Virus record (IMG/VR): IMGVR_UViG_3300004369_000058 | Coordinates: 1-35,685 of that record | DNA: 35,685 bases | DNA from: a virus | Direction: 5' to 3' (one strand) | Part shown: piece by piece, positions 17,929-21,474 of the stretch | Layout of the letters: each line of letters opens with the position of its first letter | Numbering within the stretch: position 1 is the stretch's first letter | Notes under the pieces: generated by a model | What the model was told of the DNA's origin: nothing | What the model saw: only the letters and a program-made list of their open reading frames with translations | Databases searched by the model: none | Made by a program: the position numbers and the translations under genes

Positions 17929-17936
17929 TATTTATA
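17929..17936 (-). promoter_or_regulatory. Late promoter TATAAATA for the head module
   Basis: An exact match to the T4 late -10 element on the minus strand, 22 bases before the gp20 ATG. It includes the TAA stop codon of the tape-measure gene. Confidence 0.85.
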
Positions 17937-19851
17937 CTGCATTGACATAGGACAACTTGTCCATTTTAGATTTTTGTAAACCTGTAATAACTTTGTCAAT
18001 ATCTATCATACGTTTGTTAGGATCTGTTTCTTTAAGTGCAGTTGCTAGTTCTATTATAGCTCCTGGTACTTTTTGCATAGCTCTAAATCCTAATTCTTGT
18101 TCTTTATTATTTTTTTCTTGTTGTTCTTCTATAAATTTATTAAATTCTGGACCGTAATTATTAGGCGTAAAAATAAGTTTTTCTTCTAATCTTCTTTGTA
18201 AATTAACTTTTTCTTGTATTTCTTCTGGTGTTGCATTATCAGATATAGGACTATAAGCTTCTTGTGCTTGCTGTAATATTGTATTTACGTCCTCTTGTCT
18301 ACCATTATTACTAAGTTCTAACAGTTTTATTTTATCAAAAAAATCTTTTTTAAAATCTTCATCAATTGTTCCTGTTTGAAGCATGTTAGCAATTTGTTGT
18401 CTAGTAAATTCAATACCTTGTCTCCCTAAATTTTCTTCATTGGTAGCTCCTCCTAATATACCACTTCCTAAACCACTAGCACCTGATAAAATTCCAATTT
18501 TAATCACATCTGATAGAGAATTTAAATCTCCACGTAAATCTCTTATAGATAGAACTGTACGATCCAAAGCAGCGTCAGTATCACCTTCAGGCAATTCAGG
18601 TATAACTTTTATTCCTTCTCCTGTGACTTTTTGTGCTTCTGCAATAACTTTTTGTAAAAATTGTCCTGCTGCACTTCCTTGATTTGATAAAATACTTATT
18701 ACTCGTTGATTTTCTAGATTTACACCTCGTAGCATTTCAGAAAATGAATTAGTAAGATTAGCTACTCTTTCACTATCGTCTGACTGAATAGCCTCACTTA
18801 ATTCATTTAATATACTTGTACTTTGACCTCCTGTGATTGCTGCTAATTCAGCCATCATAGGGTCTACACCTTCTATAGGTATCCCTTGACTAATACTTTT
18901 AGTTAATACTCCTGCTAAAGCCTGTCCTGTTTCTGGACCCAATCCTGCACTTAATATATTAATATTATCTTGCAATTTTCTTATAAGTTCAGGATCTCCT
19001 TGGGTTTTTAAATATGCAAGTAAATCATCATCTTGCACAACTGATTGTACAGCATCTATTAAAGATTGTCTATCTCTATTAGTTTGTCTAGCTAAATTTG
19101 TTGTTACTGTGGCAACTTCTAATACTCTTTGCCTAATTTTATCCTCTACATTTGCACCTTGCAATCCCTCCAACCTTGCAAGTTCTAATTGGTCATTAGT
19201 TATTTGATTTAACTCTTCTAAACTTAGGCCATAAAATCCCAAATCTCTTGTTTGATTTTTAATTTCTTTAATTAAATTTCCATATGTTAATACTGCTTGT
19301 TTTGCTCCCTCATTAACATCTTTAGTTTGGTCCTGTAAAACTTGTAGTCCAGTTCCTGCACCTAGTAAACCTGAACTAAACTGGTCTATGGTTTGTCCTG
19401 CACTCATTGCTCCACTGGTTATATCTCTAAAAGTAGCATTTAAACCTATACCTATTCCACTTAAATCCATTAAAGGTTTTTCTAGATCTCTAAATCCATC
19501 TTGTAAAAATCCCACAACTTCTATAAAGCTAGCTACTGCTACGCCTAACGGACCTCCTATTTTTCCTAATGATTTAATATTACCAAATGCATCTCCTAAA
19601 CCTGCAACTATTTTATTATTTGAAGCATAATTTTTTACAGTTGCATCGTAAACAGTAGTTAATCTTTCTTTAACTGATTTAGTTTGTTCATTAATTGCAG
19701 TTGTAGTTTGTCTAGTATTTCTATTAGATGAACTTGCTAATGTGTTGCTATTAATTTTTAAATAAGTTAGCAACTGCCTCATTTGATCTTCAGTTGCCCA
19801 TTCTGGAACGAAAACAGCACCTACATTTGGAATATCAATACGATTAGCCAC
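17932..19851 (-). CDS. Tail length tape-measure-like protein (gp29 position)
   Basis: I set the start at GTG 19851 (then ANRIDIPNVGAVFVPEWATE), because AGGA lies 7 bases upstream and a longer TTG frame to 19887 contains the promoter; product 639 residues. The sequence is largely helical, with Gly/Ala-rich hydrophobic segments (IGGPLGVAVASFIEVVGFL, GASGLGSGILGG) and repeated Gln/Asn-rich helices, as in tape-measure proteins. T4 gp29 has 590 residues. The divergent gp26-type chaperone gene beside it supports the call, since tape measures are encoded next to their chaperones. Direct similarity to gp29 is not obvious to me. Confidence 0.6.
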   Translation of the reverse strand: MANRIDIPNVGAVFVPEWATEDQMRQLLTYLKINSNTLASSSNRNTRQTTTAINEQTKSVKERLTTVYDATVKNYASNNKIVAGLGDAFGNIKSLGKIGGPLGVAVASFIEVVGFLQDGFRDLEKPLMDLSGIGIGLNATFRDITSGAMSAGQTIDQFSSGLLGAGTGLQVLQDQTKDVNEGAKQAVLTYGNLIKEIKNQTRDLGFYGLSLEELNQITNDQLELARLEGLQGANVEDKIRQRVLEVATVTTNLARQTNRDRQSLIDAVQSVVQDDDLLAYLKTQGDPELIRKLQDNINILSAGLGPETGQALAGVLTKSISQGIPIEGVDPMMAELAAITGGQSTSILNELSEAIQSDDSERVANLTNSFSEMLRGVNLENQRVISILSNQGSAAGQFLQKVIAEAQKVTGEGIKVIPELPEGDTDAALDRTVLSIRDLRGDLNSLSDVIKIGILSGASGLGSGILGGATNEENLGRQGIEFTRQQIANMLQTGTIDEDFKKDFFDKIKLLELSNNGRQEDVNTILQQAQEAYSPISDNATPEEIQEKVNLQRRLEEKLIFTPNNYGPEFNKFIEEQQEKNNKEQELGFRAMQKVPGAIIELATALKETDPNKRMIDIDKVITGLQKSKMDKLSYVNAV

Positions 19852-19862
19852 TTTTTTTCCTA

Positions 19863-19885
19863 GTAAATAGATAAAAGTATTTATC
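19863..19885. promoter_or_regulatory. Overlapping divergent late promoters
   Basis: Minus strand: GATAAATA (19885-19878) for the tape-measure gene at 19851. Plus strand: GTAAATAG (19863-19870) for the gp26-type gene at 19895. Each leaves a leader of about 20 bases with a good ribosome binding site. Confidence 0.6.
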
Positions 19886-19894
19886 AAGGAAAAT

Positions 19895-20740
19895 ATGTCG
19901 AATTCTTTATTAGAATATTATAGAAAACCTCAAATATATTGCAGTTTACCAAGTTTAGGAAAGTTTTATTTTGATGGTATTAAGCTTAGTTTAGATGGAC
20001 AATTAGCTGTAAAAGCAATGACTGCAAATGATGAACTAATGTTAAAGAATCCAGAAGCATTATTAAACGGAGAAGCTATTTTAAATTTATTACGTAGTTG
20101 TTGTCCTGATATTACTAATCCTTTAGAAGTACCTATTATAGATTTAGATGTTATTTTAGTAGGTATAAGACATGCAACATACGGTGAGGACTTAGAATTT
20201 ACAAGCAATTGTCCAAAGTGTAAAGGAAAAAATACACTGGATATAAACATAACAAATTTTTTAGACAGTGTTGAATTTATAGATGTTACACCTACTTGTA
20301 ATATAAATGAGGATTTAAAGTGCTACATACGACCTTTTAGTTATGTAGACAGTCAAAAGTTAGAAATTGCAGAATTTGAATATCAAAGCATGTTACGCAA
20401 TTTAAATAATAGTGATTTAGAAAAAGAATTAAAGGAAAAAGAATTACAAATAAAAGAAAAAAGAGATGTTTATATAGCAAAACAACTTGAAATGATTATT
20501 AATTGTGTATACAAAATAGTTACACCTAAAGAAGAAATTACAGATAGAAAACAAATAAACGAATTTATCTTACAATTAGACAAGCTTAACTATAATAAAA
20601 TTAATAAAGTAATAAAAAAAATAAACAGAAATACAGTAAAAAAGAAATTTGACCTAAAATGTCCTATGCCTAATTGTGGAGCAGAATTTTCACAGGAGGT
20701 AGATTTTAATAATACTAATTTTTTCGAAAAAGGCTCTTAA
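19895..20740 (+). CDS. gp26: Baseplate hub/tail chaperone, gp26 family (zero-frame product)
   Basis: 281 residues; T4 gp26 is 208. The pattern LAVKAMTANDELMLKNPEAL, LNGEAILNLLRSCCPDI, DLDVILVGIRHATYGEDLEF is that of the T4 base-plate protein family (gp26 type). Two Cys pairs, CPKC at 106-109 and CPMPNC at 256-261, are placed to form a zinc ribbon. A charged helical segment (EKELKEKELQIKEKRD) lies near 175-195. The start is preceded by AAGGAAA. The end of the gene holds a T-TTT-TTC heptamer in the frame needed for a -1 shift, giving a longer product. Its divergent neighbour is the tape-measure-like gene. Confidence 0.82.
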   Translation: MSNSLLEYYRKPQIYCSLPSLGKFYFDGIKLSLDGQLAVKAMTANDELMLKNPEALLNGEAILNLLRSCCPDITNPLEVPIIDLDVILVGIRHATYGEDLEFTSNCPKCKGKNTLDINITNFLDSVEFIDVTPTCNINEDLKCYIRPFSYVDSQKLEIAEFEYQSMLRNLNNSDLEKELKEKELQIKEKRDVYIAKQLEMIINCVYKIVTPKEEITDRKQINEFILQLDKLNYNKINKVIKKINRNTVKKKFDLKCPMPNCGAEFSQEVDFNNTNFFEKGS

Positions 20741-20952
20741 CTAGTAACCCTACAGAAATTCCCAGAATACTAGAAGAATATAAAAGCGAGTTAGGAGCCA
20801 TTAAAGACAAAATAGCACAATGTATTATATATCTCCCTAATTTAAGTTATATAGAACTACACTCTATGACAATAAGAGATTTAGATCATTTAATTAAAGT
20901 ATATACTAACAAAATAGAAAGAGAAAATAATGCTAATAAAAAGAAATTCTAG
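19895..20952 (+). CDS. Predicted -1 frameshift product of gp26 (352 aa)
   Basis: Zero-frame residues 1-277 (to NFF) would be joined, after a -1 slip at 20719-20725, to 75 residues from the overlapping frame 20725-20952: RKRLLTSNPTEIPRILEEY, then helices IKDKIAQCIIYLPNLSY and MTIRDLDHLIKVYTNK. That frame has no ATG, GTG or TTG near its start (the first ATG is at 20869, in the second half), yet it is open, continues to the terminator and has the codon use of the neighbours. The layout copies the G/GT tail chaperones of lambda-type phages, which are made by -1 frameshifting. The shift itself is inferred. Confidence 0.68.
20719..20725 (+). promoter_or_regulatory. Canonical -1 slippery heptamer T-TTT-TTC
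   Basis: The zero frame reads AAT TTT TTC GAA and stops at 20740; slipping back one base lets both Phe tRNAs re-pair with TTT TTT. An AGGAGGT at 20694-20700 lies upstream, 18 bases before the heptamer, a little far for a dnaX-type stimulator. No strong downstream hairpin is evident. Confidence 0.72.
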
Positions 20953-20953
20953 A

Positions 20954-20984
20954 GCAATCGAACCTTCGGTTCATTGCTTTTCTT
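20954..20984 (+). terminator. Terminator 1 after the gp26 unit
   Basis: GCAAT-GAACC-3-GGTTC-ATTGC stem with one bulged base, followed by TTTTCTT; it begins right after the stop of the frameshift frame at 20952. Confidence 0.88.
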
Positions 20985-21010
20985 AGCTGACGCTAAGAAA
21001 TATTTTTTTA
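20980..21010 (+). terminator. Terminator 2 after the gp26 unit
   Basis: TTCTTAGC-4-GCTAAGAA (20980-20999) followed by ATATTTTTTTA; a second hairpin terminator in tandem with the first. Confidence 0.82.
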
Positions 21011-21026
21011 TTATAAAGGAATGAAT

Positions 21027-21405
21027 ATCTATCCAAGTATGAAGTCGCACTTAGCCTGAATAGGCCAAGTGCGATCTATCCAAGCAACTCATCACATATT
21101 CCTAAGTCTAACCAAAATATTATGGAAATCGCGGTTGTGCGGTACGATTTTATAGACAGCTTACAACGCAGGCATTAGATATTTCCTAGGAATACAAAAA
21201 ATATCTTACCTTGTGGGTTCTAACTGCACAAGAGTGCCCACTCTTACTCATTTAGGGGCCGAGCAGCCCTAGAGAAGTCACCTTCTCAACATGAGGTAGT
21301 TTATGCCTCTGTGATTTGCATCCGAACAGGTCCAATCGCGAGTCATCTCAACTCCCTGAACTCGGCAAAGTTGCGCTACAGCAACCGTAGTGTCACTATA
21401 TTAAA
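21027..21405 (-). ncRNA. Candidate structured non-coding RNA, family unknown
   Basis: A stretch of about 380 bases with no supported reading frame and clearly higher G+C than its surroundings. It holds many stems: 21045-21074 (13 bp with a G-U on the minus strand), 21082-21215 region with AGATATTT/AAATATCT extended by GGUA/UGCC, 21226-21238, 21253-21271, 21272-21287, 21371-21386, and a 6-bp match between 21361-21366 and the loop side of 21258-21263 that would make a pseudoknot. The minus strand is favoured, since 21272-21287 gives a GUGA (GNRA) tetraloop there and several mismatches become G-U pairs; one small stem at 21293-21309 favours plus. I recognise no tRNA, tmRNA, RNase P or group I intron core. 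It would be the 3' part of, or lie just beyond, the gp55-46-47-nuclease transcript. Confidence 0.55.
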
Positions 21406-21423
21406 CTATGAAATATGATGTTA

Positions 21424-21474
21424 GCCAGTGTTGGTAAGGTATTAGCCTAAAGTGTGCCAGTGTTAGCCAGTGTT
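21424..21474. repeat. Three direct copies of GCCAGTGTT
   Basis: Nine-base copies at 21424-21432, 21456-21464 and 21466-21474; two lie in the last codons of the nuclease gene and one just beyond it. Confidence 0.7.

Follow-up and report, generated by a model that had tools for sequence, protein, structure and literature searches.

A predicted programmed -1 frameshift at the end of the gp26-family gene of jumbo phages and other T4 relatives, a candidate source of two forms of a tail assembly chaperone

The tail assembly chaperones (TACs) of T4-like phages were identified by Vladimirov, Gautam and Davidson in 2022 (Virology 566:9-15, PMID 34826709), as reported in PMC10885494 and PMC12846349. 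PMC10885494 cites the study for some T4-like phages having a short gene and, separately, a fused long gene; PMC12846349 cites it for slippery sequences of the poly-T type in the TAC-N genes of T4-like phages. As far as these citations describe it, the TAC-N/TAC-NC pair of such phages resembles the locus analyzed here: there is a short form, a long form extended by a C-terminal domain, and poly-T slippery sites in the TAC-N genes. The core idea, namely that the chaperone of T4 relatives involves a frameshift, has therefore been in print since 2022. The claim of an earlier, sequence-only reading of this DNA that such frameshifting had not been described for T4-like phages falls, because Vladimirov et al., according to the two papers citing them, had already identified these chaperones.

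Several other reports bear on the locus. T4 gp26 and gp51 are listed among the hub assembly chaperones (PMC3004832), and a 2016 review described the G-T frameshift as a conserved trait of long-tailed phages, "except T4" (PMC5009743). Sullivan et al. (2010) described the cyanophage gp51 as a reduced separate protein of about 20% of the length, without the first ~200 residues (PMC3037559). The TAC of Pakpunavirus/Vandenendeviridae is also a myovirus tail chaperone with a conserved -1 frameshift whose downstream frame was misannotated as a separate gene, although it belongs to other phage families and uses a GTTTTT motif (PMC12846349). With respect to gpG/gpGT of phage lambda (and E/E+E' of P2), the protein family differs, being PF12322 here; moreover, unlike in lambda, the candidate tape measure gene is divergent and not located downstream.

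The gp26-family gene and its -1 frame

The DNA analyzed, called the window below, corresponds to positions 1 to 35,685 of IMGVR_UViG_3300004369_000058, and the feature studied spans positions 19,895 to 20,952. Its zero frame, on the plus strand at 19895-20740, encodes a protein of 281 residues that matches PF12322 (T4_baseplate; E 1.3e-18, 67.9 bits, the gathering cut-off being 24.5) and the baseplate hub family phrog_150 (E 6e-20). An AlphaFold2 model of this protein (pLDDT 89) was matched by Foldseek in BFVD to a T4-like baseplate hub assembly protein (E 3.6e-24) and to gp26 of Aeromonas phage 25 (E 9.8e-6). In the PDB, the 50 matches listed for the model were helical-hairpin matches under Z 8 only, and a solved tail chaperone was absent from these 50, which does not exclude that fold. 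The protein contains two Cys pairs (CxxC/CxxxxC, zinc-ribbon-like) at residues 106-109 and 256-261, which are invariant in the alignment of the jumbo group; Cys residues are missing at these two positions in some cyanophage proteins. The second pair sits shortly upstream of the putative slip site.

Direct inspection of the 3' end of the zero frame (...AAT TTT TTC GAA AAA GGC TCT TAA) confirmed that a T TTT TTC heptamer, located at 20719-20725 on the plus strand, lies in the phase for a -1 slip. It conforms to the X XXY YYZ pattern expected of a frameshift site in -1 phase ahead of the zero-frame stop: four codons separate its TTC from the TAA at 20738-20740, which ends the short form. The -1 frame (20719-20952, plus strand) is open for 77 codons, starting FFRKRLL, up to a TAG at 20950-20952, and 70 of these codons lie past the gp26 stop. 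The sequence-only reading was also correct that this frame lacks a nearby start, its sole ATG/GTG/TTG being an ATG at 20866 (codon 50). The extension, which would be the TAC-C part, matches phrog_18291 (E 4e-8); the profile of the extension had no significant match among PDB sequences. It is probably a small, helical C-terminal domain. The terminator that had been noticed past the -1 frame corresponds to two terminator-like hairpins on the plus strand at 20960-21000 (20960-20972 and 20979-21000), against 0.4 expected in shuffled sequences.

The same sequence-only reading placed the gp26-family gene beside a tape-measure-like gene. The neighbour, on the minus strand at 17932-19887, encodes 651 residues and is transcribed divergently from gp26. 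By its size and position it is a plausible tape measure gene, but profile searches with its product gave no match to a tape measure family. The T4 tape measure family phrog_1283 was present only in T4 among the 15 records scanned, and a divergent frame of 644-1155 codons occupies the neighbour's place in all 74 jumbo-type loci checked.

Conservation and selection in related phages

The comparison covered about 200 related viruses. A tblastn search of INPHARED with gp26 gave matches that, among those listed, nearly all belonged to large-genome (jumbo) phages. With the extension as query, the same locus was recovered in many jumbo phages, in alignments that begin at the FF of the heptamer. Nineteen loci were read individually, comprising 17 related phages, one IMG/VR contig (L001) and the window, and every one of them has an in-phase heptamer and an open -1 frame. 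The heptamer is T TTT TTT in two of them and T TTT TTC in the rest; it is located 1-11 codons ahead of the gp26 stop, and the -1 frame continues for 57-75 codons past that stop. The arrangement was also present at five further IMG/VR loci. Three profile scans then added 175 IMG/VR loci, a few of whose contigs represent the same phages as others, and 175 of 175 have an in-phase T TTT TTC followed by an open -1 frame. From Phe codon usage, conservation of two Phe residues alone would give the heptamer in 6-9% of cases. The arrangement is thus conserved far beyond chance.

The two frames behave differently downstream of the heptamer. The -1 reading is conserved as FFR.rLL, starting at the heptamer and ahead of any start codon, whereas the zero frame over the same region varies and stops 1-11 codons on. 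Past the gp26 stop, median pN/pS values were 0.13, 0.21 and 0.15 in the -1 frame, compared with 1.2-3.3 in shifted frames, and the extension is therefore under purifying selection in the -1 frame only. The alignment of relatives that had been proposed as a check hence came out in favour of a frameshift, with the heptamer and the -1 frame conserved (19/19 and 175/175 loci) and pN/pS at 0.13-0.21. The one-gene groups checked keep both heptamer and -1 frame, except for the Vi01/Cygsa01 branch, and gene 26 of phages with two such genes lacks the heptamer. At the gp26 3' ends of Vi01 (L039) and Cygsa01 (L041) there is a -1 extension matching the gp51 tail, but ATTTTC replaces T TTT TTC. In these two phages, a different slip or coupled re-initiation may operate.

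In sequence records, the extension is either left unannotated or entered as a hypothetical protein whose start varies. A frameshift would correct the annotation of many genomes of jumbo phages, cyanophages and pelagiphages that now lack the long chaperone or show it in pieces. It would also account for the puzzling cyanophage "short gp51" (PMC3037559), a small frame past gp26 whose only match in T4 gp51 is to the C-terminus and which, in our analysis, follows T TTT TTC in the -1 frame.

Candidate stimulators and alternative explanations

Structures that stimulate frameshifting are expected 5-9 nt downstream of the heptamer, and the window has a stem at that distance. A 6-nt spacer, GAAAAA (20726-20731), is followed on the plus strand by the 5' arm GGCTCTTAACT (20732-20742), which pairs with the 3' arm AGTTAGGAGCC (20789-20799) in a helix of 11 bp (MFE -15.7 kcal/mol, z -2.4). 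Folding of single sequences supplied this stem, which was then tested as a predefined structure. In 36 sequences of the window's type, seven of the 11 pairs show two-sided changes, and the number of double-change cells was 41, against 18.8 +/- 3.5 in shuffled alignments and more than in any slid control. RNAalifold alone yielded no consensus structure on the alignment of this sequence type (A12).

Other lineages have other elements. In place of the long-range stem, cyanophage-type loci have a short hairpin roughly 5 nt past the heptamer, and an upstream Shine-Dalgarno-like (GGAG-like) element is present in 73 of 80 of them, compared with 3/80 and 0/15 in the jumbo sets. The long-range stem, the short hairpin and the upstream element are all absent in the enteric jumbo phages, so that the stem is not required everywhere. 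The window itself has an AGGAGG about 19 nt upstream of the heptamer. The Shine-Dalgarno-like stimulator of dnaX has a spacing of about 10 nt, which the AGGAGG exceeds, and we dropped it as a candidate upstream stimulator. We found no report in the open-access literature of the covarying stem, of its change between lineages or of coverage of this jumbo group; as weak evidence, this suggests that the stem and its change between lineages may be new.

The best reading of the locus, to which we assign a probability of roughly 93%, is a programmed -1 frameshift following the logic of lambda G/GT, in which gp26 would be TAC-N, and gp26 plus the extension TAC-NC, of a T4-superfamily tail assembly chaperone. 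The locus has the anatomy of TAC genes, that is, one gene with a short and a predicted frameshift-extended form, and selection in the -1 frame. Conservation and selection support the earlier proposal that gp26 is the short member of a chaperone pair with a programmed frameshift. The majority of ribosomes would terminate at 20738, producing the abundant short form, and a minority would slip by -1 on the heptamer, aided by the stem formed by 20732-20742 and 20789-20799, and read the -1 frame up to 20952, producing the scarce long form. If they act like lambda gpG/gpGT, the two forms would coat the tape measure protein, and the extension might recruit tail-tube subunits or the hub. The slip and its efficiency are inferred, as is the function as a chaperone; judging from position, the divergent 651-residue neighbour would be the partner of TAC-N and TAC-NC.

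Most GenBank records annotate the extension as a separate small gene with its own, often overlapping, start. This agrees with an ATG overlapping the gp26 stop in BF, PBECO4, Kaldavass and XbC2, and with a first ATG at codon 5 past the heptamer in 77 of 80 cyanophage-type loci. However, start positions vary among relatives, the -1 frame of PA5oct has no start codon whatsoever, and the first start in the window, at codon 50, lies beyond half of the conserved domain. Furthermore, conservation of the -1 peptide sets in at the heptamer, ahead of the candidate starts, and a separate gene leaves the invariant heptamer unexplained. We therefore consider an independent gene quite improbable, although re-initiation could add some free extension, because many relatives carry a -1 ATG near or just past the gp26 stop.

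The heptamer could also act on the polymerase instead of the ribosome: the six-T run is conserved, and transcriptional slippage that adds a base to the mRNA would open the -1 frame and yield the long form. Polymerase slippage, however, would favour longer runs, and the invariant C limits the run to six in all 175 IMG/VR loci, seven T residues being found only in XacN1, RAS14 and HTVC008M. The covarying stem, at ribosomal spacing, also fits ribosomal slippage, and we regard slippage during transcription as highly improbable. Finally, an open frame arising by chance, or a sequencing error that splits one continuous gene, has nothing in its favour beyond the AT-rich sequence. The same arrangement in every frameshift-group relative checked, together with purifying selection in the -1 frame, refutes this explanation and makes its probability negligible.

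Relation to T4 genes 26 and 51, and flanking DNA

T4 gp26 and gp51 are PF12322 paralogues, and the C-terminal tail of gp51 is phrog_634. Among the phages compared, phrog_634 is in frame only in T4, which has two PF12322 genes and carries it in gp51. P-SSM2, DSL-LC02, HTVC008M, KVP40, phiAS5, Cygsa01 and Vi01 have a single PF12322 gene with phrog_634 in its -1 frame, and the first five of these contain T TTT TTC or T TTT TTT. In five two-gene phages, gene 26 no longer has the heptamer, and its -1 frame either is closed or is taken up by gene 25. The abstract of Vladimirov et al. (2022) reportedly describes frameshifting as conserved in several T4-like groups, with T4 using genes 26 and 51. The proposal that the long partner is made by frameshifting rather than from a separate gene hence applies to the one-gene relatives, but not to T4, where gp51 carries the extension as an in-frame fusion. 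As this separate gene supplies the long partner in T4, frameshifting is not a general rule among T4-like phages.

T4 gp26/gp51 and the window's gene belong to the same protein family, and gp51 bears a homologue of the cyanophage-type extension (hhalign of the cyanophage extension against the gp51 C-terminus, E 1.9e-12). For the window's own, jumbo-type extension the homology support is weaker (E 2e-5), and the match covers only the C-terminal half of the extension. The T4 arrangement differs in having two genes, a gene 26 that has lost the heptamer, and the extension in frame in gp51. In the tree, two-gene phages have their gp26 and gp51 genes in a single clade (100/99), to which the frameshifting KVP40 and phiAS5 are, weakly, the nearest rows. 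With its arbitrary root, the tree would fit a later duplication giving rise to 26 and 51.

It seems to us an even bet that the ancestral state of the T4 superfamily was a frameshift at a set efficiency, which T4-type phages later escaped by duplication into genes 26 and 51. The efficiency would be set by stimulators that differ between lineages: window-type jumbo phages would use the long-range covarying stem, cyanophages the short hairpin plus the Shine-Dalgarno-like element upstream, and enteric jumbo phages neither of them. Such stimulators, or an order of frameshift followed by duplication, may be missing from what has been published on T4-like chaperones. The split between lineages would explain why G-T frameshifting was described as conserved "except T4" (PMC5009743), and the contrast between one frameshifting gene and two genes makes the required short-to-long ratio testable in T4.

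The DNA flanking the extension deserves a brief comment. The non-coding stretch 20953-21446 of the window, which contains several hairpins (e.g., 21045-21074), is ~98% identical to positions 4062-4557 of L001. On its left, gp26 has only 72% protein identity with its L001 counterpart, while the genes on its right hardly differ. This conservation probably reflects a recombination boundary near 21020 and not a constrained RNA; the stretch could possibly hold a structured RNA. Neither the window nor seven related loci gave an Rfam match, and the corresponding stretches of the enteric jumbo phages gave none either. In those phages, ~700-850 bases at this place past the gp26 extension have no annotated gene (L008 2722-3526, L013 3537-4374, L015 3543-4330, L022 3043-3848 and L016 3040-3724).
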